This document shows positions 21,887-36,165 of a DNA stretch of 64,000 nt, piece after piece; position 1 is the first letter of the stretch, and each line of letters opens with the position of its first letter. The position numbers and the translations under genes were made by a program. The notes under the pieces are model-generated. The model was not told the DNA's origin, did not search any database, and was given only the letters and a program-made list of their open reading frames with translations. This DNA comes from Fervidobacterium gondwanense DSM 13020 (GTDB lineage: Bacteria > Thermotogota > Thermotogae > Thermotogales > Fervidobacteriaceae): contig NZ_FRDJ01000001.1 in NCBI RefSeq assembly GCF_900143265.1, forward strand, positions 310,001 to 374,000, written 5' to 3'.

Positions 21887-23200
21887 TCAATTTCCAGCAG
21901 CTGAGACTACAGGGAATTTTATAGTAGATAATCCTGTGAGCTTTAATATAAGTTTTGGGATATCTGTGTTATCCATGAAACCGACAAAATATTGTGCACC
22001 TGGGCCGAACGCATAAACTGGAACTGGCGCAGCGGTGTGGTCCCATGTTGTCCAGCCAAATCCTACCTTTTCGCTGACAAATCTTGCAAGTTCCCTTCTC
22101 AGGTTGCTTGATGACACTTTTCTAAGAGTTTCGTATTCTGCATCCGATATCGAAATTCCATACCAATCTTTGATTCCCTGCACGAATTTCTCTTTGTCTG
22201 AAATGTTGTACTGGCTCAGGAACATCTGTGTCGTTCCCTTGGCCTTTCTTGCAAGTTCAACATTTATAGAGTATCCACCTTTTGAAAGTGACAACCCACC
22301 TGTTTCGTGGTCCCCAGTTACTATTACCAGCGTGTTTCCATCTTTCTTAGCAAATTCAAGCGCAACCTTTACAGCATTATCAAATTCAACAGTTTCTTTC
22401 CACACACCGTAGAAATCGTTAGAATGTGCTTCCCAGTCTATCTGTGAACCTTCTACCATTAGCATGAATGGTTCACCACTTTTCGAAAGAATTTCAAGCG
22501 CCTTTGTAGTCATCAAATCGAGAGTTGGTTGAGATGAAGGTCTACTGCTTACAGGTTCCAAATGACTTGCTGCGAATAAACCTAACACCTTATCTGATGA
22601 TGCAGACTTCAACCCATCGATTGAATTTACATACTCATAACCCTTCTGCTTCATTAATTCAATTAAATTCATTCCATCCGTTCTTCTCCCACCGTTTGCT
22701 GTTGGAAGGAACCACTGCCACCCGCCACCAAATACAACGTCAACCGTTCCGGATTCAGCCAATTGTTTTGCAAGAGTAAGCTCGTCGTCTCTATTGCTGA
22801 CATGCCCATACACCGAAGCAGGCGTTGCATGAGTTACTCTACACGTAACTGCTAAGCCTATCTTATATCCCCCGTTCTTCGCAATTTCAAAGATAGACGT
22901 TATAGGTTCTCCGTTCGGAAAGACACCAATCGCCCTGTTGAGTGTCTTAAAACCACTGAATAGTGCAGTTCCAGCCGGTGCCGAATCTGTGACCCATGAA
23001 TCGTATGAATAAGTTGTTGTAATCGCCGTGTATGGCAACGTCATCGTTGTTAGAACTCTACCTTCGAGAATACTTGCAAGCAAGAGCTGGTTGAACGACA
23101 TCCCATCTCCGACTAAGTAAATGATGTTAAGCGAAAGTGCTACAACGGAAAGGAAAATGACTAAGAGAATACTCAAGAACTTAGCTCTTACTCCAAACAT
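21887..23200 (-). CDS. Alkaline phosphatase, PhoA superfamily (thermophilic H/W type)
   Basis: Exported phosphomonoesterase, 437 residues, with a hydrophobic signal segment (about 9-24). Active-site residues by alignment to E. coli PhoA: nucleophile S73 in VTDSAPAGTA (S102), D32 (D51), T126 (T155), R137 (R166), E250 (E322), D255 and H259 (D327, H331), D297-H298 (D369, H370) and H388 (H412). The metal-site modulators D153 and K328 of E. coli are H124 and W256 here, the pair known in T. maritima phosphatase. AGGAGGTG precedes ATG 23200. It lies beside nuclease and OB-fold exoprotein genes, so nucleotides are plausible substrates. Confidence 0.93.
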   Translation of the reverse strand: MFGVRAKFLSILLVIFLSVVALSLNIIYLVGDGMSFNQLLLASILEGRVLTTMTLPYTAITTTYSYDSWVTDSAPAGTALFSGFKTLNRAIGVFPNGEPITSIFEIAKNGGYKIGLAVTCRVTHATPASVYGHVSNRDDELTLAKQLAESGTVDVVFGGGWQWFLPTANGGRRTDGMNLIELMKQKGYEYVNSIDGLKSASSDKVLGLFAASHLEPVSSRPSSQPTLDLMTTKALEILSKSGEPFMLMVEGSQIDWEAHSNDFYGVWKETVEFDNAVKVALEFAKKDGNTLVIVTGDHETGGLSLSKGGYSINVELARKAKGTTQMFLSQYNISDKEKFVQGIKDWYGISISDAEYETLRKVSSSNLRRELARFVSEKVGFGWTTWDHTAAPVPVYAFGPGAQYFVGFMDNTDIPKLILKLTGLSTIKFPVVSAAGN

Positions 23201-23328
23201 GCCCTACACCTCCTCTTATAGAATAAACCTCTGGCATCTGAAAAAATCTATGCCTGAACTTTACATTCTACAGTATAACTTCATTTTCTTAAAATACGAT
23301 TACTCAAAATTAAGATTTGTGAAGATAA

Positions 23329-23357
23329 GAATCCGGCTGCTTTTCACAGCCGGATTC
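23329..23357 (-). terminator. Terminator of the barrel-nuclease-OB operon
   Basis: GAATCCGGCTG (23329-23339) pairs perfectly with CAGCCGGATTC (23347-23357) around 7 nt. On the minus strand it is followed by TTATCTTC, a modest T-tract. It lies 25 nt after the two-OB gene. Confidence 0.7.
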
Positions 23358-23382
23358 AAAAATCGCACAGTTTTATCAAATT

Positions 23383-23964
23383 TCAGAATTTCTTTATATC
23401 TTCTGGTGTTCTTGGAAGAATTTCGTACATGCCTTTGTATAAGTACATAACACCAGTTACCGAAACTTTATCGCCTACTTTTAGTGTGCTGACATTAAAC
23501 GGTACTTCTTTTCTTATATAAATCAAAATTTCAAACTTATCAGTCTTTACAGTAAACTGATATTTTTCAACCGATTTCACAGTACCTACAACGTTTACAA
23601 GATTTGAAAGATATTTCTTAAAATCTCCGTCTTTAAGTTCAACCGCTGTCGGTGTTGCTGTCCCAATTATTTCGACTTTGTCAGGTATGATCTCTAGAAT
23701 ATCATAGTAAATCTTTGTTTTGCCGACAACTTTAATCACTTGTCCAACTTTTAAATCAGCTGGTAAGCGGTTCCCGTAGAGCATGATACCTGCAGTTTCA
23801 TCTTGTATGTAAGTTGTCAACGTTCCGAGAACACCAACAGGTGCGAGCACAATACCTGTTGCCTCTACCGTTTCCCCTTCTTTAACCTTGTAGATATCCG
23901 CAATCTTCGCTGCAAAGAATGCAACACTGAGTAGAAGCAGAAGTGCGACTACGAACTTTCTCAT
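23383..23964 (-). CDS. Exported protein of two OB-fold domains (YhcR-OB type)
   Basis: 193 residues: signal peptide (MRKFVVALLLLLSVAFFAA) and then two OB-like repeats. Repeat 1 (about 35-105) has ATGIVLAPVGVLG, TTYIQDETAGIMLYG and LKVGQVIKVVGKT; repeat 2 (about 118-190) has VGTVKSVEKYQFTV and LKVGDKVSVTGVMYLYKGMYEI. The whole region is clearly homologous to the C-terminal ~165 residues of the barrel protein two genes upstream. OB-folds of this type accompany the nuclease domain in B. subtilis YhcR. Likely role: extracytoplasmic nucleic-acid binding (inference). Its leader shares sequence with that of the large lipoprotein gene. Confidence 0.8.
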   Translation of the reverse strand: MRKFVVALLLLLSVAFFAAKIADIYKVKEGETVEATGIVLAPVGVLGTLTTYIQDETAGIMLYGNRLPADLKVGQVIKVVGKTKIYYDILEIIPDKVEIIGTATPTAVELKDGDFKKYLSNLVNVVGTVKSVEKYQFTVKTDKFEILIYIRKEVPFNVSTLKVGDKVSVTGVMYLYKGMYEILPRTPEDIKKF

Positions 23965-23994
23965 AAACCTTCACCCTCCCTGTAAAATATGACG

Positions 23995-24004
23995 AACTGA
24001 TTAA
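23995..24004 (-). repeat. TTAATCAGTT leader motif, copy before the two-OB gene
   Basis: Read on the minus strand as TTAATCAGTT, 30 nt before the start codon and overlapping the nuclease stop. The same 10-mer is found at the same distance before the lipoprotein gene (28846-28855), and both leaders continue to TTACAGGG before the ribosome site. Confidence 0.45.
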
Positions 24005-24771
24005 TTGACTATCTTAATTTCGAATGGTGCGCGGAGCATGATCATGTATTTACTTGTACTCGTATCTGTCCACAGTTCTCCATAAAAGCGCACCTTTCTA
24101 CCCTTTAAACCGTACAGGTTGTAACTCTCAAAAAGGTGCTTGTATTCTTCGTATCTGATTTTGACAAGTGCAAAATCGGATTCTATGTAGTAAGTGTAAT
24201 TAGAGTATCTCACGTTAGAAACATCCATCTCAAGCCATATAATCTTTCCCACATACGAATTCGTAATATTTGCTCTTGTTACAACCGGTGCGGTGTCGTA
24301 TTTTGAGAATATACCTTTTCTATTCTCGTACGCTCTTTTGTACGCATCGACTATCTGTTTTGTATAATTAGGTACAGATGTGTCGTCATACATTAACGGC
24401 CTTGCATATCCTATTTCAGTGACGGATGCTTCGTACAGATACTTCTTATCTCCATCGACGGCAAAAAGATAAACTAACTTTCTCCCATAACTATCTGTAC
24501 CTTTTTGCTCATAAGTAAGTTCAAAATTGTTGGCAAACCAGATTAGGTAGTTCTTTGCATCAGTACCGTACTCTCCGACTGGTTTATCACCAGAGTGAAT
24601 CTCCGGTGTATCAATACCTATTAGTCTGTACGACTGGCCATAGACTTTGACTGTGTCACCATCCACAACTTCGACATTCTTTAATATCTCTTGCTGCGGT
24701 GCGCAGGAAGAGAGGTAAAGTACTAATACAATGATTATGAATATTGGAAAGCTGCTGAGAATTCTTTTCAC
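24001..24771 (-). CDS. Staphylococcal-nuclease-like lipoprotein (thermonuclease)
   Basis: 256 residues, exported and lipid-anchored: the signal peptide ends in LSSC, with Cys at 23. The SNase domain (about 30-175) keeps every catalytic residue: D37 and D54 for Ca2+, R49 and E57 in RLIGIDTPE, and R97 in DSYGRKLVY, matching D21, D40, R35, E43 and R87 of the S. aureus enzyme. It should cut DNA and RNA. The last ~75 residues (VGKIIWLEMDV to FEIKIVN) look like an extra OB-type beta domain. GTG 24771 is chosen because AAAGGAG lies 8 nt upstream; the in-frame ATG 24789 has no ribosome site. Confidence 0.88.
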   Translation of the reverse strand: MKRILSSFPIFIIIVLVLYLSSCAPQQEILKNVEVVDGDTVKVYGQSYRLIGIDTPEIHSGDKPVGEYGTDAKNYLIWFANNFELTYEQKGTDSYGRKLVYLFAVDGDKKYLYEASVTEIGYARPLMYDDTSVPNYTKQIVDAYKRAYENRKGIFSKYDTAPVVTRANITNSYVGKIIWLEMDVSNVRYSNYTYYIESDFALVKIRYEEYKHLFESYNLYGLKGRKVRFYGELWTDTSTSKYMIMLRAPFEIKIVN

Positions 24772-24822
24772 TTTGGAATCTCCTTTCATCGAATCAGTTA
24801 ATCGAACAAAATGTAATACAGA

Positions 24823-26463
24823 TTACATCGTTTCAATGTCAACTTGTGAAATTGGTTGTATCTCGTATTCTCCCTTGAAGAGTGTGAGTATACCTGTTAC
24901 TTTAACCTTCTTACCCTCGGCTATACCTGTTAAGCTAATCCCTGTAGCTGACTTGATGTAGATTTTCACTTTCAAATTACCGGTATTAACTATGAAATTG
25001 TCCTTTGCTACATTCTCAACAGTTCCAACAACATACACCATGTTTGACATGTAAGCATCAGAAAGCTCTTTCAGTTCCACAGGCTGAACCTTAGCACTTC
25101 CAACAACCGTTACACTGTCCACGACTATTTCAAGTATGCCATTGTAGACTTTTGTTGAACCGCTGACGCTCACGACATCTCCAACCTTGAGTGTTGCAGG
25201 AATAGATCTTCCATACAACATTATAGCCCCTGTCTTGTCTTGAATGTACGTGGTTGAACCGCTCAAAAGTCCAACAGGAGCAAGGACTGTACCTGTAACG
25301 GTAACTTTTGAACCTTCAGGCATTTTGTATAGCTCTGCAATCGAAATTGTTTGTTCTTTTCCACCAGGCACAGAGGCGGTTTTTGGCATGAACTGCATTA
25401 CAGCAGCCTGTACACCAGCAAGGAAATCTATGCTCGCTTGGTAGTTGTATGTTACTCTCAAGAGTACCGACTGGGTTCCGGTCATAGATGATGAAACGTA
25501 CAAGTCACCATTAGCAAGGGATAAAGAAAAGTCCCCGGACGTTATCTTAACACCGTAGAGTGGCAACCAACCGCTTTCTGCCCATATGCTGTTGTATTTT
25601 GCAAACAACCCAACGTAGAAATTAGACAGGTTGTAGCCTATCTCGCCCATAACGTTCCAAGTGTTTGGCTGGTTCGGATTTGAAGGTTCTCCTGTTGCAA
25701 AGCTCACATCGTACTTATTGCCACCTATCCAAGCGAATTGACCTGCTGCAAATACAGGACCAGAACTAAGAGTTGCACCTATCAGGAAACTTGGCTCGTT
25801 GATAGTATTTGTCGCTGCACCGATGCCAGCCCAGTATTTCAAAGTTCCAAATGGTAAATTCTGCGTGTTTTGATAGTTCAATGAAAGTTGGTAGTACCTT
25901 GTTTCGTAATATGCCCCAAACTGTCCGAAATCGGTTCTGAGAGAACCGTACAGTGCGTAATTATTGAGCTCTAAACTGTACGCACCACCAAGTTCGTATG
26001 AATAATTTCCGAGCTTACCGGAGATGTATCCAACAATACCTCCAGGACCGATTTCTGTTGCTGAAGTTCTGTACGTATCGTACTTCAACCCACCAATCTG
26101 AACTCCCTCGTAATTGTTTGTAAGGCTACGTGATAACCTCATTCGCCCAATCGCTAAATACAATGTGTTTACGTAGTTATTATCCATTTTGAATCTTGAA
26201 TCGACAAAGTAATATCTCGGAACTATGAAATTCATACCAAAAAGATTAGATGTCGTATGTGAATATGTGAGGTAATCGGTTAACTTTAACGCGAAAGAAT
26301 CAAATGGACTTGGTAAAGTAAACGTCCAGTATCCTATAGGAAAATTGTCTATAGCTCCGGAATTAAGGTCGTACGTTAAATACCCCCTGAGCTGGAAATC
26401 GAGTTTGAAAGCCATAGATAGAACAGTTAAAATGACAAGCAAAGTAGCAAGGTATTTCCTCAC
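24823..26463 (-). CDS. Envelope beta-barrel-like protein with C-terminal two-OB module
   Basis: 546 residues. A signal peptide (ending near LSMAF) is followed by about 350 residues of alternating, aromatic-rich strands (LDFQLRGYLTYDLNSG, NYSYELGGAYSLELNNYALYG, TRYYQLSLNYQNT, ATLSSGPVFAAGQFAW), the look of an outer-membrane/toga beta-barrel. After a short linker (about 366-376) comes a module homologous to the exported two-OB protein: VTVTGTVLAPVGLLSG, TTYIQDKTGAIMLYG, LKVGDVVSVSG, and VKVTGILTLFKGEYEIQP. GTG 26463 has GGGAGGG upstream. First of three genes before the terminator at 23329. Barrel plus nucleic-acid-type OB domains suggests a surface DNA/RNA-binding pore (inference). Confidence 0.75.
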   Translation of the reverse strand: MRKYLATLLVILTVLSMAFKLDFQLRGYLTYDLNSGAIDNFPIGYWTFTLPSPFDSFALKLTDYLTYSHTTSNLFGMNFIVPRYYFVDSRFKMDNNYVNTLYLAIGRMRLSRSLTNNYEGVQIGGLKYDTYRTSATEIGPGGIVGYISGKLGNYSYELGGAYSLELNNYALYGSLRTDFGQFGAYYETRYYQLSLNYQNTQNLPFGTLKYWAGIGAATNTINEPSFLIGATLSSGPVFAAGQFAWIGGNKYDVSFATGEPSNPNQPNTWNVMGEIGYNLSNFYVGLFAKYNSIWAESGWLPLYGVKITSGDFSLSLANGDLYVSSSMTGTQSVLLRVTYNYQASIDFLAGVQAAVMQFMPKTASVPGGKEQTISIAELYKMPEGSKVTVTGTVLAPVGLLSGSTTYIQDKTGAIMLYGRSIPATLKVGDVVSVSGSTKVYNGILEIVVDSVTVVGSAKVQPVELKELSDAYMSNMVYVVGTVENVAKDNFIVNTGNLKVKIYIKSATGISLTGIAEGKKVKVTGILTLFKGEYEIQPISQVDIETM

Positions 26464-26512
26464 AACAATCCCTCCCGAGATTCAATAAGATTTGATTATC
26501 CGTTATTTGTCT

Positions 26513-26544
26513 AAATAACCCGGGACAAACCGCCCGGGTTATTT
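26513..26544 (-). terminator. Terminator between the lipoprotein and barrel genes
   Basis: AAATAACCCGGG (26513-26524) pairs perfectly with CCCGGGTTATTT (26533-26544) around 8 nt. It lies 43 nt after the lipoprotein stop; the T-rich side is short. Confidence 0.7.
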
Positions 26545-26586
26545 CTATCCGCAAACATTAAATCATGTTTCACTTACGAAAAATTA

Positions 26587-28815
26587 TCAAAATTCCCACT
26601 TTAGTCTTGGATAGTCATTGCCTTCGTCGATTTTCCAAATATTCGTGAAGTCCCAATCCACAAACGTTGTTTGCTGTTTCATCTCAGCCGTTGTCTTTCC
26701 GATTTGGAGAGAGCTACTTGCTGAGCCAGTTGTTGTTCCAGAAACCGTTGTATCAAAGTAGTTTTTGCCACTGTCAGCCGTAACTGATACACTTGCACCA
26801 CCTATAAACCCTCTCCAGTTTGTACTTGAACCATTTGGTGCAACCGCTGCGTAGGAACTCACAATTTTAATCTGACCATTGTTAGAAACAGAAGCTAACC
26901 CAATCAGACCACCGATGTTGGATGCACCATTTACAAATGTAAGAGTACCAGTAGCATAGCAGTTTTCAATTATACCGACAACATTAGTTCCCGTGCTGAA
27001 AAATCTTCCAACCAAAACACCAGTACGGCTATTTGAAAAGTTCGAAGTAACGGTAACATTGCTCGCAAAGGATTCTCTCAAAATCATCGGCTGTGTTGTT
27101 GAATCTGTAGTCACATCACCAATCAGCCCACCAGCATATGGGTAGCTGGTACCTGTTGAATATGTTGAAGTTATGCTTGAGTTTCTTACACCGACTCTTA
27201 TAACGCTCGAATTTTTCGCTGCCCCAGCAAGAGCACCCACATATTGCTTTGCGGTTATATTAAAGTTTTCCAATATCAAATTCTTAACTGTTGAGCTTAA
27301 GAGATATCCGAACAATCCTGCGTTTGACCTATTGCTGTCATTATAGGCGAGGTTCTTAATCTTCTTGTTATTACCATCAAACACACCTTTGAATGCTGTA
27401 TTATCCAAGTCGGTGCTGCTGAAAGTCCCAATCGGTGTCCAAGCAACTCCATTAAGATCTAAGTCTTCTAAGAGCTTAAAATAATAGCTCTTTGCTCTGT
27501 AGTTATCATCGCCCAAAAGTTTCAGCTGATTCACGGTGCCTATCAAGTATGGATCGCTTTCCGTACCATTTCCGCCTGCAAATGTGTAACCAATCTCAGC
27601 TTTTTCAACTTCCTCCTTTGGACCCTCTTCTCCGTCGACCACAGGTGCAACAGCAATAGCTTTGACGTTGTCATATTCAGATGTAGTTAAACCAAATGAG
27701 TAACTTTTATCAGACGTCGTTCCTACCAATTCATAAGCTCCGGAAACTTTCTTGTAAATCTTGAACTCCGTAGCAGAACCATGCGACCAGCTGAGGTACA
27801 TTTTTCCATTGTAATCATCGTATTTTGCATTCAAATCTGTTACTGGGTCTACTGATACGATTTGAATTTCACTAATCGTCAAAACTTTACTCTTTGAAAC
27901 TCCCTTAACAACCTGAATTCCTACCGATGTTGGGGTTGCTTCAACAGGCAACACAACATTTGTGAGTGTCGTCGTGGTTGCAAGAACCGTTCTAGTAGCT
28001 CCTTCGAGTGTTAAGTACACGTTGAATGATGCACCATTAACTTCAGAACTCCAACCGAGCGTTACGGTCTTTGAGTTCGGATTGTACTTAGCGCTAACAC
28101 CTGTAACCTGAGGCAATTCCATTTCAACTTTGTCAGGGAATACGACAAACTCCCAAACATCGTTGTAGTATTTTGTATAACCCACGAGCGTTGCTGGAGT
28201 AGTCGTTGTCGGCTTATATATTGCATCTATATCAGCACTTTTGAAAACACTTATTGTAGCATATTCTCCATCATTTACCGGATATTTAAATTCGTAAGTG
28301 TTTGTCAATTGTCCGTTATTTCCTGTGAACTCGCCGTAGACATATGCATACCTTATGTCCCAGAGAGCTCTTGTTTCTTTTTCATTATCTAGGCTCTTAT
28401 CAAGAAGTACCGGTTCGATGATGGTATCATCATTACTAAGTTCTTTTGTTCCGCTGGTAAGGTCTATTTCCAAAAACTTTGAATATGTCTTGCCTATAGT
28501 ATTTCTTACGGTAAGTTTTTTTCCAAGGTCTGTCTCAGAGAGATTTGCCTTGTAAACATAGATAGCAGTAGTTGCATCAGATATTATCGCATTAGTACCT
28601 GAGACGTAAATAACTTTTCCGGAAATTTCCGGAATCGTTATTCCGGTGTCTGGATTTACTGAGTTCAATATATCGAGTTTCCATCCGTATATGTCCTTTT
28701 TTACCGTTCCGCCACCGCCGTTGCCTCCACCACCTTGGTTCTGAGGAACACATGAGAAAACCAATAGGAGAGTTGTCAAAACCGCAAGAAAAATGAAAAA
28801 CTTGCTTCTACTCAT
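26587..28815 (-). CDS. Large surface lipoprotein: OB-like, Fn3-like and GLUG-like regions
   Basis: 742 residues. A signal peptide with lipobox VFSC (Cys 22) and a Gly/Asn linker (NQGGGGNGGGG) precede four regions: about 55-235, beta-rich with ISGKVIYVSGTNAIISD and AIYVYKANLSETDLGKKLTV, an OB-like pattern; 240-330 and 335-410, two fibronectin-III-like units (VTGVSAKYNPNSKTVTLGWS, VTDLNAKYDDYNGKMYLSWS); and 415-742, beginning AGGNGTESDPYLIGTVNQLK and containing repeated GALAG, GGLIG units like GLUG motifs of adhesins. Likely surface anchored and adhesive; the ligand is unknown. GGGGGTG precedes ATG 28815. Separate promoter and terminator, but same strand as the nuclease operon. Confidence 0.75.
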   Translation of the reverse strand: MSRSKFFIFLAVLTTLLLVFSCVPQNQGGGGNGGGGTVKKDIYGWKLDILNSVNPDTGITIPEISGKVIYVSGTNAIISDATTAIYVYKANLSETDLGKKLTVRNTIGKTYSKFLEIDLTSGTKELSNDDTIIEPVLLDKSLDNEKETRALWDIRYAYVYGEFTGNNGQLTNTYEFKYPVNDGEYATISVFKSADIDAIYKPTTTTPATLVGYTKYYNDVWEFVVFPDKVEMELPQVTGVSAKYNPNSKTVTLGWSSEVNGASFNVYLTLEGATRTVLATTTTLTNVVLPVEATPTSVGIQVVKGVSKSKVLTISEIQIVSVDPVTDLNAKYDDYNGKMYLSWSHGSATEFKIYKKVSGAYELVGTTSDKSYSFGLTTSEYDNVKAIAVAPVVDGEEGPKEEVEKAEIGYTFAGGNGTESDPYLIGTVNQLKLLGDDNYRAKSYYFKLLEDLDLNGVAWTPIGTFSSTDLDNTAFKGVFDGNNKKIKNLAYNDSNRSNAGLFGYLLSSTVKNLILENFNITAKQYVGALAGAAKNSSVIRVGVRNSSITSTYSTGTSYPYAGGLIGDVTTDSTTQPMILRESFASNVTVTSNFSNSRTGVLVGRFFSTGTNVVGIIENCYATGTLTFVNGASNIGGLIGLASVSNNGQIKIVSSYAAVAPNGSSTNWRGFIGGASVSVTADSGKNYFDTTVSGTTTGSASSSLQIGKTTAEMKQQTTFVDWDFTNIWKIDEGNDYPRLKWEF

Positions 28816-29084: not shown

Positions 29085-29122
29085 AAGAACAAAAAGCTCT
29101 GGCTGACTTTACGTCAGCCAGA
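29085..29122 (-). terminator. Terminator of the ornithine/rocA operon
   Basis: TCTGGCTGAC (29098-29107) pairs perfectly with GTCAGCCAGA (29113-29122) around TTTAC. On the minus strand it is followed by GCTTTTTGTTCTTT. A second small palindrome (29127-29143, TTTTGAG and CTCAAAA) lies between it and the gene end. Confidence 0.85.
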
Positions 29123-29169
29123 ACATTTTTGAGATTCTCAAAATTATATCGTTTAGAACGTTTAAATCG

Positions 29170-30744
29170 CTAAATCCTCTCGCTTATCGCCTTCGCTTGT
29201 AAGAACAATCCAAGGTAGTCCCTTCCGCCCGCTTTACTGTCTGTTCCTGACATGTTGAATCCACCAAATGGGTGCACGCCGACGAGTGCTCCGGTCGATT
29301 TTCTGTTGAAGTAAAGGTTACCTACGTGGAATTCTTCTTTTGCTCGTTCTATCCTACTTCTATCCCTTGAATAAAGTGAACCAGTCAAACCGTATTCTGT
29401 TGCGTTCGCTATTCTTAGTGCGTCGTCAAAATCTTCGGCTTTGATAATCGCAAGCACTGGTCCGAAGATTTCCTCCTGAGCTATGCGTGCGTCCCACGCT
29501 ACGTCTTTGAATATAGTCGGCTCAATGAAGTATCCGCCGAGGTCTTCACGTGCGTTTCCACCAAATATCAGCTGTCCTTCTTTCTTGCCTATCTCTATAT
29601 ATGCCATTATCTTTTCCATCGAGCTCTTGTTGACAACTGGACCGAGCCAGTTTTCCTTGTACCTCACATCACCTATCGTTATCTTCTTTGCCCTTTCGAT
29701 TACTTTTTCAACAAGTGTATCGTAAACATCTTTTACTATCACAGCACGGCTACCTGCACTGCATTTTTGACCTTGGAAACCGAATGCGCTGACGATGATG
29801 CCTTCCGCCGCCGCATCAAGGTCCGCTGTCTCGTCAACAACTACAGCATCTTTTCCGCCCATTTCAAGTACCGTTCTCTTAATCCATATCTGTCCCGGCT
29901 GAGGTTTTGCAGCGAGTTCGTGGATGCGCAATCCAACATCTTTTGAACCCGTGAAGCTTATGAACCTCGTCTTTGGGTGCTTGACTAAGAATTCTCCCGC
30001 AAGAGCTCCGCTTCCTGTCAAAAAGTTGACAACTCCATCGGGCAAGCCCACTTCTTGCAATACTTCGAAGAATTTCGCAGCTATTATAGGGCTGTCGCTT
30101 GCCGGTTTTAAAACTACTGTGTTACCCGTTACAATCGCAGCACTCGTCATTCCAACGAGTATCGCAAGTGGGAAGTTCCATGGTGGAATGACTATGCCAA
30201 CGCCGAGTGGTATATACCTGAGTTCGTTGTATTCGCCTGGAATCCTGACAACCGGCTGTTCTGAAGCGTACCTTAGCATTTCCCTTGCGTAGAATTCCAA
30301 GAAATCTATCGCTTCAGATGTGTCAGCATCTGCTTCACCCCAGTTCTTGCCAACTTCGTAGACCATAACTGCGTCGAATTCGAATTTTCTCTCTTTGATT
30401 CTTTTCGCCGCTTTGAGCAGGTACTCTGCTCGTACGTGTGCTGGTGTTCTGCTCCATGTCTTGAACGCTTCCCATGCAGCTTCGAGCGCTTTTTCTGCAA
30501 GCTCTTCGTTTGCGCTGTTCGCAATTCCGACGATTTCTTCCGGCTTGCTCGGGTTAATTGATTTGATCTTTTTTTCCGTCTTGTACGCTTTTCCTCCGAT
30601 GACGATGTCGTACTCTTTTCCGAACTCCCTGTAGACTTTTTCGAGAGCTTCTTTCATCTTCGCTTCGTTTTCTGGTTTTGAAAAGTCAGTCACAGGTTCG
30701 TTTTTGAATGGTGGTATGATCGTCCAATCCGTAGCCTCGTACAT
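29170..30744 (-). CDS. rocA: L-glutamate gamma-semialdehyde (P5C) dehydrogenase
   Basis: NAD(P)-dependent oxidation of glutamate semialdehyde (from P5C) to glutamate, cytosolic. 524 residues, the length of RocA/PruA single-domain enzymes. Visible: [29 protein letters not shown], catalytic Glu in [11 protein letters not shown], catalytic Cys in GQKCSAGSR, and [11 protein letters not shown]. It follows oraE by 59 nt on the same strand and precedes the terminator, so it is probably the last gene of the ornithine operon. That would let ornithine or proline carbon enter glutamate. Confidence 0.92.
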
Positions 30745-30803
30745 CCCTGTCCCCCCTTGAATTTTTGTAAGTACCTCAAGAATGTTTTAATTTAAGTAGC
30801 ACA

Positions 30804-33002
30804 TTAATTTCCTTCTTTCTCTTTCAATCTTTTGACTATGAATGATGCAACGTGTATACCTTTTGTGCCCCTTCCGAATCCTGCATCTACGCCGTTCTCT
30901 ATCGCTAAGTCGTTGTTTATCTGCGTTCCACCGACGATGATGAGCACTTTGTCCCTAATACCTTTTTCTATCGCAAGTTCGTTCAACCTGCGCATGTTTC
31001 GAATGTGGACGTCGTTATGAGTGATTATCATAGATGCGAGTATCGCATCAGCGCCAGTCTCAATTGCCGCGTCTATAAGTTTTTCAGGTGGTACGCTCGT
31101 GCCAAGGTATGTGTATTTAATACCGTATTTTTCTATACCACCGTGTTTTATGTCGAGGACTTCTCTCAATCCAACCGAGTGTTCGTCTTCTCCAACTGTT
31201 GCAGCAACTACCTTGATTGGCCTTTTTTCAACGTAGCTGAAGAGCTCTTCTTCTGGAAGTGTTTCTGGTTTCTTCGGAAGCTCAAGCTCGTCTACCTTAA
31301 TTTCGAATGGAACCTTTGCTTTGAGTTCGATGTACGTTCCTTCAACTGGGTGGAGAACGGTCTTCGCAATTATCGTTGGCTCTTCAAGCCCAAGTTTTTC
31401 ACACACGGCTAACGCAGCGGCTTCTGCGTATTCTTCTGGCAGTGAGAATGTCATGTCAAGCTGTATCCAGCCGTCTGCAAACCATTCAACCTCTGGCTTG
31501 ATTACGTTCCTTGACCTCATGTCTTTTATCTTTTGTAGCCTGAGGTTGACGTTATCAGTCTCGTCGAGCTCATCTATGAATTGTATCTTCTCCGGTTTGT
31601 GGAACGTACAGCCTCCTATCAAGTCACAAGGCTTTTCGATACCTTCCGGCAAATTGTTGTAGCCGAAGTGTTCACATACCGGTGCCATGTAGTCGTGGTC
31701 TCTCGGAACGACCGTACCTGCCGCAAGTTCTCCGTCTTTCTTTCGAGCGATTCCATCGCCGAATCTTTCGGGATAGTATCCGTTGTCAACGAACATACCA
31801 GCTTCAAGTGCCTCGAAGTACCCACCCATTTCGATTATCTCTTCAAGCATCAGGATAGCTCTCATCTTCAATTCTCTGACCTTTTCTCTAATCGCTTCTT
31901 GGTCTATCTTGACGTATTTCTTTATCCCGTCGAGTGCAAGGAGTGTGTGCTTTGCAGTTTCAACACCTCTTATTGAGTTTATGTGCCATGGAACGTTTCT
32001 TCCTTCGTCGGGGGTTATAGTTGACTGCAAGTCCGCACTTGTAAGTCTCGAAAGCATTGCATTTATAACGTGCGCCCTTGTTGCGTCGAACAAGTCTGAT
32101 TCGATGTATCTTGTGTTCATCTGTGCCCTAAACCTGTATCCTTGGAAGAGTTCTCTCAGTGCAACGGCGTATGGCAAGTCTATTCTCATTTCCGGAAGTG
32201 GTGCAATCACTGGTGGAACGGTTGACAGAGCTATGTTTTCCTTCGGCATTCCTACTTTTACAGAATACATACAGTTTATACCGTGCTGTACGAGTAGTTC
32301 GGGCATGACTGTCCATGCAAGTTTTGCGGAGGCGTTTGCGTTGTGCGCTCCGTCTATCTGCAACATATTCGCCCAAGCCATTATTTTCTTTGCAACCGCT
32401 GCATCAACAAATGACCTTACTGGGTTGACGCCCCTGTAAAGAACGTTGTACTGCGGGTCTTGGTGAGCTCCGTTCACACCTTCTTCGGCAAATAGGACAG
32501 CTATCTCTGGACCGGCAACACCGGAAACATAACTGTGGAAGTTGATAGGTCTTCCAACTTCGTCTTCTATTAAATCGAGCGCCTTTCTTGTTGCACGCAC
32601 TTGCTTTCTTGTTATCGGTATACCGCCGACACCTTCTGGCGTTCCTTCAATAAGCCCGTCGAAGTGCGATTGTCCGAGCGTTCTGATAACCATTATATGA
32701 TCCGCACCGTGCCATGCAGCCATGCGCATGCGCCTTATGTCGTCTTCGAATCTACCAGAGGCTATTTCACTTGTGATAACGACATCCGGCTGCGGGTCGA
32801 TGTTGTTGAAGTAGTGTGCTGCTGGTAATGGAATACTCTTTTTCAGTGGTTCGCTTACCTGATAGTATTCATATCTGTCTATTTTTGTACCCTCTGGCAA
32901 TTTCTTTCTCCAAGTCCAGCCTCTTCTTCTTGGGCGGTATTTATCCAAATCCTTCAATATTTCTTCAACATCGATTGGTTTCATGGGCTCGAGTTTATCC
33001 AT
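30804..33002 (-). CDS. oraE: D-ornithine 4,5-aminomutase, large subunit OraE
   Basis: Adenosylcobalamin- and PLP-dependent mutase subunit, 732 residues: moves the amino group of D-ornithine from C5 to C4, giving 2,4-diaminopentanoate. A TIM-barrel part (about 60-400) is followed by a C-terminal B12-binding Rossmann domain (about 595-730). The cobalt-ligand motif DxHxxG is D606-E-H608-S-V-G611, and the PLP lysine is K619 in LDIKHGG, exactly 11 residues after the His as in the clostridial enzyme. Start overlaps the oraS stop by 8 bp. Acts as a complex with OraS. Mechanism-inactivated enzyme may need a GlmL-type chaperone. Confidence 0.95.
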   Translation of the reverse strand: MDKLEPMKPIDVEEILKDLDKYRPRRRGWTWRKKLPEGTKIDRYEYYQVSEPLKKSIPLPAAHYFNNIDPQPDVVITSEIASGRFEDDIRRMRMAAWHGADHIMVIRTLGQSHFDGLIEGTPEGVGGIPITRKQVRATRKALDLIEDEVGRPINFHSYVSGVAGPEIAVLFAEEGVNGAHQDPQYNVLYRGVNPVRSFVDAAVAKKIMAWANMLQIDGAHNANASAKLAWTVMPELLVQHGINCMYSVKVGMPKENIALSTVPPVIAPLPEMRIDLPYAVALRELFQGYRFRAQMNTRYIESDLFDATRAHVINAMLSRLTSADLQSTITPDEGRNVPWHINSIRGVETAKHTLLALDGIKKYVKIDQEAIREKVRELKMRAILMLEEIIEMGGYFEALEAGMFVDNGYYPERFGDGIARKKDGELAAGTVVPRDHDYMAPVCEHFGYNNLPEGIEKPCDLIGGCTFHKPEKIQFIDELDETDNVNLRLQKIKDMRSRNVIKPEVEWFADGWIQLDMTFSLPEEYAEAAALAVCEKLGLEEPTIIAKTVLHPVEGTYIELKAKVPFEIKVDELELPKKPETLPEEELFSYVEKRPIKVVAATVGEDEHSVGLREVLDIKHGGIEKYGIKYTYLGTSVPPEKLIDAAIETGADAILASMIITHNDVHIRNMRRLNELAIEKGIRDKVLIIVGGTQINNDLAIENGVDAGFGRGTKGIHVASFIVKRLKEKEGN

Positions 33003-33369
33003 TGTGCTTCACCCCTTTGAAGATCCTGTCTACTTCGTCCCAGTACTGCCCGTTTATCATTCTTCTTCCTGCCTCTATGTAGTCAATATTGTGCTCTTTT
33101 GCAATGCGCCAGACAATGTGACCTGCTCCTTTTCCAAGCAAGCCTCTTTCGAAAATCATATCCACAAGTTTTTTAGCTTCAAGACTGTTGAATCCCATCC
33201 TAAGCAGGACAGAGCGCTCAATTGAAGGACTCGTGTGCGTCCTTGCAAGCTCTACAAGTGGATCTACAACTTTCTCGACAAGTTGCCAAAAGTAAGCGTT
33301 GAGCTCTTCGTCAGTCATATTCTGAAGGTGCTTTGACCTTTCCTGGAAGTCATCTGGTCTTGGTCTCAT
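32995..33369 (-). CDS. oraS: D-ornithine 4,5-aminomutase, small subunit OraS
   Basis: 124 residues, the usual size of the helical small subunit that partners OraE. Recognisable blocks: RPDDFQERSKHLQNMTDEEL, ELARTHTSPSIERSVLLRMGF and VWRIAKEHNIDYIEAGRRM. ATG 33369 is chosen because it overlaps the ortB stop in an ATGA and GGAGGGAA precedes it; a longer in-frame start at 33399 is less likely. Confidence 0.93.
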   Translation of the reverse strand: MRPRPDDFQERSKHLQNMTDEELNAYFWQLVEKVVDPLVELARTHTSPSIERSVLLRMGFNSLEAKKLVDMIFERGLLGKGAGHIVWRIAKEHNIDYIEAGRRMINGQYWDEVDRIFKGVKHNG

Positions 33370-34796
33370 CTTATTCCCTCCCCAACCTCTTCTATCCATT
33401 TAAGAATTTCTTCTCTACTTGCTCTCAAATCTTCTTCAAGGAATTTCAATTCTGTTTCGTTGAATTCTTTTCTGTTTTCGCGTTTGATCAGCTCTTTAAG
33501 ATAGCTCTTTTTCATCTCTTCAACAGGATATTCGATTACACCTATCTGTGCGGGGTGTTCTGGTATTGCGATAACTTTTCCAGGCTTATCTTCTTTTATT
33601 GGATCGCCTCGTTTAACAATCATCCCCATCTTTTTTGCAAATGTGAGCTGTGCGGAAGGTAATTTTCCAGCGCCCGTGTATTCGGTTTCGTTTACAACGA
33701 TAGTCTTGTCTTCGTCCATCTCAAGTGCGAGTGCTATCGCAGCCGTCAAAGATGTATTACCTGCAGGTCCTCTCTGCAAGCCTTCCAAGTGTGCAAGCAT
33801 CTCTGTTACGTAGAAGACTTCTCCTTGAGTTACAAGGACGTATCTGTCCATATACCTGAGAGGTCTTGCCGCGTTCTTTGGCACGTCTGATCTATCAGGA
33901 AATACGGCGAATGGGATTCCGAAGCCCGTATGGCCTGTTGTGAAGTACTTTTTATTGAAATCGTTGTCGCTCGCCATGTGAAGACCTCTTAAGTCCACGC
34001 TTGCGCCTATTATCTTTGTTTCAGTTGCACCTGCTTTTTTCAAACCGCGTGCGGTTCCTGTGATAAGTCCACCACCTGCGTGTGTAACAACAACCGCATC
34101 AGGATACTTGCCCGTCAATTCTTTCATCTGCTGAGCGATTTCGTATCCGAGCGTCTCTATCCCTGCTATGGCGTACGGTGAGTAAAGCGAAGCGTTGAAA
34201 TATCCTGTTTCTTCAAGCAATCTCAGAGTGTAATAGAAAAGCTCTGGTCCGACGGTAAGTTGGACAACCTCCGCGCCATATGCTTCACAAGCTCTGCCTT
34301 TTTCGAGGATCTCGGGCTGTCCTCTCCACTGGCTGTCGTAGCATTCCTGAACGATGATACATTTTAAACCTCTTTTTGCAGCTTGAGATGCAACCGCTGC
34401 ACCATAGTTACCACTCGTTGCTGCAATGACACCTTTGTAACCGAGTTTTTGAGCATGATAAACACTGACAGCTGCTCTTCTGTCTTTAAAACTCCCTGAC
34501 GGGTTTGTCGCTTCGTCTTTTAAAAATATCCTCGCGCCTTTGCCTTTTGGAGCTATCTTCTTAATCAATCTATTTATATTCTTCAATTCGACAAGCGGCG
34601 TGTTACCCACACAAGTTTCAGCCTGTATTTCCCGGACTTCTTCTATCGAATATCCGACTTCTTTCATCATTTTTTCATAATCGAACGCTATTCCGTTGAT
34701 GATGAATTTTTCGTAATCTATCCCGACAGCTTTCTTCATTATCTCGGCGCGTCTTGCCATAACTGCGCTATAGGATATGTCGAGGTTATTTGCCAT
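33366..34796 (-). CDS. ortB: 2-amino-4-oxopentanoate thiolase, beta subunit OrtB
   Basis: PLP enzyme of fold type II (threonine-synthase-like), 476 residues. With OrtA it cleaves 2-amino-4-oxopentanoate with CoA to acetyl-CoA and alanine. The PLP lysine is in NPSGSFKDRRAAVS; the cofactor-binding glycine loop is AGGGLITG. ATG 34796 is chosen because GGTGGTGAG lies upstream; it overlaps the ortA end by 11 bp. Overlaps on both sides indicate translational coupling. Confidence 0.94.
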   Translation of the reverse strand: MANNLDISYSAVMARRAEIMKKAVGIDYEKFIINGIAFDYEKMMKEVGYSIEEVREIQAETCVGNTPLVELKNINRLIKKIAPKGKGARIFLKDEATNPSGSFKDRRAAVSVYHAQKLGYKGVIAATSGNYGAAVASQAAKRGLKCIIVQECYDSQWRGQPEILEKGRACEAYGAEVVQLTVGPELFYYTLRLLEETGYFNASLYSPYAIAGIETLGYEIAQQMKELTGKYPDAVVVTHAGGGLITGTARGLKKAGATETKIIGASVDLRGLHMASDNDFNKKYFTTGHTGFGIPFAVFPDRSDVPKNAARPLRYMDRYVLVTQGEVFYVTEMLAHLEGLQRGPAGNTSLTAAIALALEMDEDKTIVVNETEYTGAGKLPSAQLTFAKKMGMIVKRGDPIKEDKPGKVIAIPEHPAQIGVIEYPVEEMKKSYLKELIKRENRKEFNETELKFLEEDLRASREEILKWIEEVGEGIR

Positions 34797-35124
34797 TTTT
34801 CTCACCACCTGAATGCTCATCACTTTCTAAGAATTCTCGTAATTCCATGCCTATGGTGATGAGCTCCGGCACTGGCTCGCCAAAGTCATGCTCATACTTT
34901 GGATTGACAGCAACCAATGTACCGGAAACAATCCTACCCGTTGGTGTTTTTATGTTCACGGTATTTCCAATTTCGGCTTTTTCATCTATCAGAAAACCTT
35001 TGACACGCATTTCAAGAGGGACTTTCTTCGTATCGTCAGGTACTTGCGGCGCTCGTTCAGTTGGTTGCAAAATCCTCACTTGAACTTGCACCCAATCGCC
35101 CTTTTTAGCAACATTTGGGAGCAT
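34786..35124 (-). CDS. ortA: 2-amino-4-oxopentanoate thiolase, alpha subunit OrtA
   Basis: 112 residues, beta-rich small subunit. Typical start KKGDWVQVQVRILQPTERAPQVPDDTK and C-terminal GEPVPELITIG. Assigned from its own pattern and from its place between ord and ortB, as in clostridial ornithine clusters. GGAGGTGAG precedes ATG 35124. Confidence 0.92.
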   Translation of the reverse strand: MLPNVAKKGDWVQVQVRILQPTERAPQVPDDTKKVPLEMRVKGFLIDEKAEIGNTVNIKTPTGRIVSGTLVAVNPKYEHDFGEPVPELITIGMELREFLESDEHSGGEKNGK

Positions 35125-35154
35125 TCGCTCACCTCCAGAATTTAGAAGTCAAGC

Positions 35155-36165
35155 TCATTTTGTGAATGAAAGTATTGACCTTGGAACCGGCAAATCTGCC
35201 ATGCATTTCAGCCCCGGCTGAGCACCGATAACTATCGGTATCATGTTCGTTGCAATCGCTATCGTTGCCTTTCCTCCGGGTATCTCCGGTTTTATCGAAA
35301 GGTTTATATTTATGTCCCCGTATATCTCTATGTAATCTCCAGTATCGACACCTTCAAGGTGCGGATGAATCTGTTGCGGATGGTAGAGCTCAATCACGCA
35401 TTTGTCTCCAACGTATGCCTTAGCTGAATGATTACACCCCGCAACCATGCCCGGTTGTACTTTAACGACGGGCGTTTCTCTGTATACGTTAGAAATTATC
35501 GGTTTTCGTTCTTCTTCAACTTTTGATATGTTCCATCCCAACGCTCTTGAAATCATAGCGATGCTCTGCGGGAAACCTATGTGTCCAACGATAGTACCTT
35601 TCTTCAAACCTTCTTCGAATTGCTCTGGCGTTGTTCCGACGCCTTGAGTTTCCATAACCGTCTTCCCAAACGGAGATAAATCGTTTATTCTTTTCGCTAT
35701 TATCTTATCAACTCTTGTGCAAACACCAGTTAACGCTATTATGAGAGTGTCGAGCACAAAACCGGGGTTAACACCTGTTCCGAGAATCGTAACGCCATAC
35801 CTTTTTGCAAGGCTGTCCATATAGAGCGATTCCTCTGGATGTGAATCAAATGGGAATGCCATCTCTTCTGCAATAGTTATTACGTTTGCATGATTCTTAA
35901 CTGCGTATTCGATTTGAGGAAGCACGTCTTTTACGAAAGAGCTTGTAGCTATCACAACGAGGTCTGGATTTGTTTCCTCAATAACGTCGATTGAATCTCT
36001 AACGCGCACGCCGTAGTTTCCCAAGCCAAGAAGTTCACCCACATCTTTGCCTATAAACTCTGGGTTCTTATCGATAACTCCGACGAGTTTCATGAATTTG
36101 CTCTCAATAATATTCTTTGCGATACCCCTTCCCATCGCTCCAAATCCCCAAGTGACTATTCTCAT
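35155..36165 (-). CDS. ord: 2,4-diaminopentanoate dehydrogenase Ord
   Basis: NAD(P)+-dependent oxidative deamination of 2,4-diaminopentanoate to 2-amino-4-oxopentanoate. 336 residues; N-terminal Rossmann motif [12 protein letters not shown] (7-18) and a dihydrodipicolinate-reductase-like layout with GVNPGFVLD in the middle. ATG 36165 has AGGAGGG upstream. First gene of ord-ortA-ortB-oraS-oraE. No ornithine racemase gene lies in the window, so D-ornithine must be made by a product encoded elsewhere. Confidence 0.93.

Follow-up and report, generated by a model that had tools for sequence, protein, structure and literature searches.

The window analysed here, a stretch of 64,000 nucleotides from Fervidobacterium gondwanense DSM 13020 (contig NZ_FRDJ01000001.1, positions 310,001 to 374,000), contains a minus-strand locus that we are inclined, on balance, to read as a cell-envelope system for scavenging nucleic acids by capture, cleavage and import through a porin. 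The conserved core of the system consists of an OB-fold lipoprotein, an outer-membrane porin, which here carries a tandem OB pair, and a lipoprotein in which a staphylococcal-nuclease-like (SNase) domain is joined to an OB domain. Gene content, domains, active-site residues, conserved linkage and the fold and topology of the porin were computed directly and form the basis of this reading. A preliminary description of the region had proposed that five consecutive minus-strand genes, all for exported proteins, divide among them the functions of the Bacillus subtilis wall protein YhcR, with an alkaline phosphatase (AlkP) as the last component. The five open reading frames at 21887-28815 and the export of every product, taken from the list of reading frames, are borne out. 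The features are, in window coordinates:

26587..28815, minus strand: 742-amino-acid lipoprotein (lipobox LVFSC) with an OB region at about residues 40-235, two Fn3-like segments and a GLUG-type C-terminal half
24823..26463, minus strand: 546-amino-acid exported protein, a predicted outer-membrane porin (about residues 19-347) with a tandem OB pair (about 372-546), from an AlphaFold model, Foldseek and VIA-align
24001..24789, minus strand: 262-amino-acid SNase lipoprotein, active site complete, with an OB domain at its C terminus (about 176-262)
23383..23964, minus strand: 193-amino-acid exported protein with two OB domains in tandem, a paralogue of the OB pair on the porin
23329..23357, minus strand: terminator-like 12-bp hairpin with a weak T tail, at the boundary between the four-gene unit and the phosphatase
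21887..23200, minus strand: AlkP, a neighbour judged to lie outside the core system
29096..29124, minus strand: upstream terminator-like 12-pair hairpin, at the boundary between the unit and an aldehyde dehydrogenase gene

The core was traced through 103 Thermotogota genomes by profile searches with the porin/OB protein and the SNase-OB protein, after which the neighbourhoods were inspected (the labels f1-f11 for families come from the search tool, and the taxonomic names of most genomes are inferred). Porin and SNase occur on one contig in 24 of the 103 genomes, distributed over four families (f1 12, f8 3, f9 2, f10 7), and in all 24 they lie at most two genes apart. Among the 22 same-contig pairs for which the gap was measured, it is -4 to 158 bp in 21, and the members of the remaining pair are 1,620 bp apart. 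A 25th genome (G086, f3) carries the SNase, an OB lipoprotein split by a contig end and the porin/OB protein on two contig ends. The OB lipoprotein adjoins the porin or the SNase in nearly all genomes that have the pair. Gene order runs OB-porin-SNase in f1, OB-SNase-porin in f8 and porin-SNase-OB in f9, and in f10 the SNase gene is divergent from porin-OB; because order and orientation differ between families, the linkage has outlived rearrangement and is more than one frozen syntenic block. In the Fervidobacterium genome G005 the porin and SNase genes both group with Thermosipho (support 0.995 and 0.96) and stand in a different genomic context, which suggests that the two were transferred together as a unit. 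Co-occurrence in relatives, offered as a check in the preliminary description, is found for the porin, SNase and OB core and fails for AlkP. A wider contig scan, in which the spread beyond Thermotogota was hardly probed, matched four contigs of Thermotogota metagenome-assembled genomes, as well as two proteins from Patescibacteria-type genomes that carry only OB domains. The open-access literature searched, subscription papers being outside its scope, yielded no description of the locus; the Thermotogota cluster is apparently undescribed so far, in agreement with the earlier statement.

The putative catalytic component is the SNase lipoprotein. Its nuclease domain matches PF00565 (thermonuclease; E 1.2e-11, 45.4 bits against a cut-off of 21), and the complete site reported before is recovered in full, with D45, R55, D60, T61, E63 and R103 aligned to D21, R35, D40, T41, E43 and R87 of staphylococcal nuclease; the lipobox is LSSC. 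Residues D45, R55, D60, E63 and R103 and the SC of the lipobox are invariant in 11 homologues, while T61 is replaced by A in some, and the predicted structure (mean pLDDT, the predicted local distance difference test score, 72) matches staphylococcal nuclease structures. The alignment points to an intact active site and predicts nuclease activity. What had been overlooked is that the C-terminal 87 residues form a further OB domain, whose profile, compared with that of the second domain of the porin's OB pair, scores 92 % and whose predicted strand order fits the OB fold. The same genome also encodes, on contig C5 (L097:8575-14226), a second membrane-anchored SNase, whose gene immediately precedes those for a DUF3798 protein and an ABC importer (ATPase, two permeases); the arrangement is found at L068, L069 and L098 as well and is possibly a nucleoside/nucleotide uptake operon.

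The 546-amino-acid protein, previously called barrel-like, is well supported as an outer-membrane porin by its structural model. Its first 350 residues match no sequence family, no Pfam porin and no PDB sequence, so that the assignment is one of fold only: the AlphaFold model resembles OprD/Occ (Foldseek E 3e-7) as well as MOMP, chitoporin and Occ (VIA-align Z 16-18 over 270-296 residues). Along the chain, turns of two residues and loops of 4 to 21 residues follow one another alternately, a pattern kept in 23 barrels of five families, and this predicted barrel fold, in which periplasmic turns are short and outer loops long, is shared with OprD/Occ, chitoporin ChiP and MOMP. The barrel differs from these in its fusion to a tandem OB pair and in its sequence, which is only about 8-15 % identical to theirs. 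Outer-membrane proteins typically end in W or F, and the C-terminal residue of the porin's relatives without an OB pair is mostly one of the two. The last barrel strand starts at a long loop on the outer face and crosses to the opposite one, which would place the fused OB pair in the periplasm, a prediction drawn from a limited-confidence model and general knowledge of such barrels. This topology makes it doubtful that all the proteins are at the surface, as had been proposed. A common origin with c14/c15, the barrels encoded next to the locus in Thermosipho, was considered for the porin and is unsupported (hhalign <6 %). In Thermosipho (L091:2662-8468, L093, L096) a second envelope cluster adjoins the locus; it encodes CBM48 repeats fused to a possible barrel, another possible barrel and lipoproteins, one of them with an OB pair, and looks like a glycan counterpart of the locus. 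At L089-L096, also Thermosipho, the locus lies directly 3' of a cluster of glycerol kinase, FAD dehydrogenase and GlpP-like genes on the same strand.

The OB modules suggest what these proteins might bind. PF01336 (tRNA_anti-codon) matches at its curated cut-off in both the 193- and the 546-amino-acid protein, and the tandem OB of the former, which is confined to part of family f1, shares 49 % identity with the pair at the C terminus of the porin. The pair superposes on an archaeal RPA structure (3e0e; Z 12.9, root-mean-square deviation 2.0 Å, 26 % identity over 82 residues in VIA-align) and resembles the tandem OB domains of HIN-200 (Foldseek E 1.5e-4); the likeness is one of fold, whereas RPA and HIN-200 are intracellular DNA-binding proteins. 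Weak NCBIfam matches point to replication factor A and, on the OB part of the 193-amino-acid protein, to the ExeM/NucH model (17.9 bits against a cut-off of 300). The comparison with nucleic-acid-binding OB families that had been suggested was thus positive, and from the model we infer an RPA-like OB fold that may bind single-stranded DNA or RNA.

Similarly, the N-terminal OB region of the 742-amino-acid lipoprotein is homologous to a Thermosipho OB lipoprotein family (hhalign 98.8 %), and the protein is a Fervidobacterium expansion of the core OB lipoprotein. Of its earlier assignment as an OB/Fn3/GLUG protein, the OB region and the Fn3-like segments stand, whereas the GLUG-like part that follows them has weak matches (GLUG, M26_N, DUF7015). 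Nuclease and OB domains also meet in single proteins elsewhere. L128 (f11) combines SNase, OB pair and DUF4350/GIFT, L145 (f8) has a PLD-family nuclease fused to OB domains, and at L084 an N-terminal extension is fused onto the SNase-OB protein. In the large OB/GLUG lipoproteins of G002 (L081:6212-8488) and G004 (L084:9789-12068) an SNase-OB domain lacks equivalents of D21, R35 and E43 and is, to judge from these losses, probably binding-only. In family f10 (L136-L139, L178, L187, L188) a GIFT/DUF4350-like lipoprotein (FDNAHSQTAGNADWT) lies within the cluster in several cases; besides its occurrence in L128, the GIFT/DUF4350 domain is fused to the OB pair in Thermosipho (L077, L078). Patescibacteria/Woesebacteria (L104:5198-7213, L105:6513-8675) encode exported proteins that carry the tandem OB pair too, at about 32 % identity and with no nuclease domain seen.

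In the scavenging system that we favour, the OB-fold lipoproteins would bind extracellular or periplasmic DNA or RNA. The SNase lipoprotein would grip the substrate via its own OB domain and cut it, either outside or in the periplasm, to small oligo- and mononucleotides, the porin would pass these products over the outer membrane, and the RPA-like tandem OB pair at its periplasmic end would receive the incoming strand. The components may form a complex. General phosphatases and nucleotidases encoded elsewhere would release nucleosides and phosphate, and the role of the system is presumably nutritional. The earlier idea of capture and cutting by nuclease and OB proteins is retained here as the best reading of a linkage that is conserved across Thermotogota.

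This arrangement can be compared with several known systems. YhcR likewise places SNase catalysis beside OB folds in an exported protein and probably serves the use of extracellular DNA, but it is a single sortase-anchored wall protein with OB, SNase and 5'-nucleotidase domains. Here lipoproteins and a porin come from separate genes, no nucleotidase lies in the conserved block, and lipobox signal sequences take the place of wall anchoring. The view of the locus as a split YhcR holds in that the functions are on separate proteins; its five-gene form and its phosphatase do not hold, and it overlooked that an outer-membrane channel stands at the centre. YhcR, which together with NucA/NucB reclaims phosphate from extracellular DNA, provides the nearest physiological precedent (PMC11458576). 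The ExeM/NucH nucleases (Shewanella, Vibrio Xds) share the tandem OB region, whose deletion in ExeM nearly abolishes the nuclease activity that requires it (PMC6085458). They differ in having an EEP catalytic domain, where SNase is found here, and an LTD domain, and only the OB part of their model matches. We know of no porin partner of ExeM/NucH. In Bacteroidota, polysaccharide utilisation loci of the SusCD type follow an analogous logic of binding lipoprotein, surface hydrolase and outer-membrane channel; in the present locus no SusC or SusD homologue was seen, the barrel is porin-sized and the predicted substrate is nucleic acid.

The five-gene proposal itself, in which separate surface proteins share out what YhcR does with its OB folds, SNase and nucleotidase, and AlkP removes phosphate, we consider distinctly unlikely. 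The natural unit is four genes (23383-28815), because terminator-like hairpins lie at 29124-29096 and 23357-23329. In the order of transcription (742-amino-acid, 546-amino-acid, SNase, 193-amino-acid and AlkP genes) the intergenic gaps are 123, 33, 36 and 182 bp, the last separating the 193-amino-acid OB gene from AlkP, and a third terminator-like hairpin, of 11 pairs, lies 3' of AlkP. AlkP is probably transcribed separately, although the hairpin at 23357 has a weak T tail. By its sequence it is a PhoA-type alkaline phosphatase (Pfam E 3.7e-89, 300 bits; aligned to 3a52), and the complete active site claimed for it is present in the five motifs GDG, TDS, EGSQIDWEAH, GDHETGG and DHT. Such an enzyme would free phosphate from the 3'-nucleotide products of the SNase, and in G003 an AlkP gene lies 120 bp from a different membrane-anchored SNase paralogue on the same strand (L083:7723-9858), a faint hint of a common role. 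AlkP homologues occur in 66 of the 103 genomes, but adjacency to the block is limited to G000, G001, G002 and G004, close relatives with common surrounding genes on both sides and thus one syntenic block. AlkP is unlinked to the core in all other genomes, and no match was found in G005, G016, G017 and G086 although the core is present. The 5'-nucleotidase domains of this genome are encoded elsewhere, at three unlinked places; in one Kosmotoga-like genome (L130) a 5'-nucleotidase lies 2-3 kb downstream of the block. Because of the hairpin, the adjacency in four relatives only and the absence from several core-bearing genomes, we judge AlkP not to be a component of the conserved system, and we reject a five-gene operon on the hairpin, the 182-bp gap and the missing conserved linkage. 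On the other side of the unit, the window at 29170-36165 holds ornithine-type degradation genes, with L-glutamate semialdehyde dehydrogenase and 2,4-diaminopentanoate dehydrogenase (NCBIfam); one tRNA is the only RNA element in the window.

Other roles for the core can be imagined. A protective or biofilm function, with a surface nuclease clearing extracellular DNA or incoming phage or plasmid DNA and the porin as a mere anchor, is unlikely, even though OB-containing extracellular nucleases of other bacteria act on biofilm DNA (PMC6085458, PMC11458576). The only PADLOC match, to the candidate model SNc+LTD (E 4.9e-10), might speak for such a function, but it covers the SNase domain alone and leaves the other proteins unmatched, and a defence system was rejected on this ground; a protective role would moreover have no need of a conserved porin and its fused OB pair. 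Natural transformation, with porin and OB pair importing DNA strands for ComEC while the nuclease trims them, appears highly improbable. The OB pair is predicted to be periplasmic, the nuclease sits in the envelope and the genome encodes ComEC, but the presence of ComEC in 98 of the 103 genomes, with or without the locus, speaks against competence, and a non-specific SNase beside the channel would destroy donor DNA. Thermotoga sp. RQ7 is naturally competent (PMC4029938), yet the SNase-OB model finds no match in genus g13, which we take to be Thermotoga, nor does the porin model in the single member of that genus that is listed. We regard it as very unlikely, too, that glycans or envelope proteins are the ligands of the OB modules and that the locus is a toga structure or glycan-uptake module with the nuclease as a passenger. 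OB folds are able to bind oligosaccharides, the GLUG half is adhesin-like and the CBM48 barrel cluster adjoins the locus in Thermosipho; however, in fold the OB pair comes closest to RPA and HIN-200, OB fusions are found mostly with nucleases, and the SNase carries the same OB type.

Several observations nevertheless weigh against nucleic-acid scavenging. The capacity of OB folds to bind oligosaccharides or proteins applies here as well, and the porin model is moderate (mean pLDDT 60, residues 1-146 below 50, five sequences). Barrels without SNase occur in G027-G031, G058 and G101, and SNase-OB proteins without a barrel in f9 genus g27, f10 genus g34 and f3 G097/G098. The correlation of the porin and SNase distance matrices (r 0.89, 0 of 5000 shuffles) counts in favour of the linkage, but the permutation test mostly reflects shared species history. 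The locus is also lost, as decayed copies in G003 (L082:8400-9473), G009 (C76:24430-25227) and G012 (C6:151777-152337) show; they consist of a truncated SNase with an intact OB protein or of a broken porin beside an intact SNase.

Within the scavenging reading, a more specific proposal can be put forward tentatively: a dedicated, Thermotogota-wide outer-membrane module for nucleic-acid import, a 'nucleic-acid utilisation locus' resembling those for polysaccharides, in which a porin with a periplasmic RPA/HIN-like OB receiver acts with the SNase-OB protein and OB capture lipoproteins. If so, this would be, to our knowledge, the first substrate-specific oligonucleotide porin paired with its own nuclease. 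In hot sediments and oil reservoirs, nucleic acids provide phosphorus and nitrogen in large amounts, and how diderm bacteria take them as food through the outer membrane is poorly known. A phylum-wide nuclease together with a porin that carries predicted DNA-binding domains offers a concrete, testable candidate for nucleic-acid import and would suggest which class of substrate an uncharacterised family of barrels in the Thermotogota outer sheath is likely to handle.

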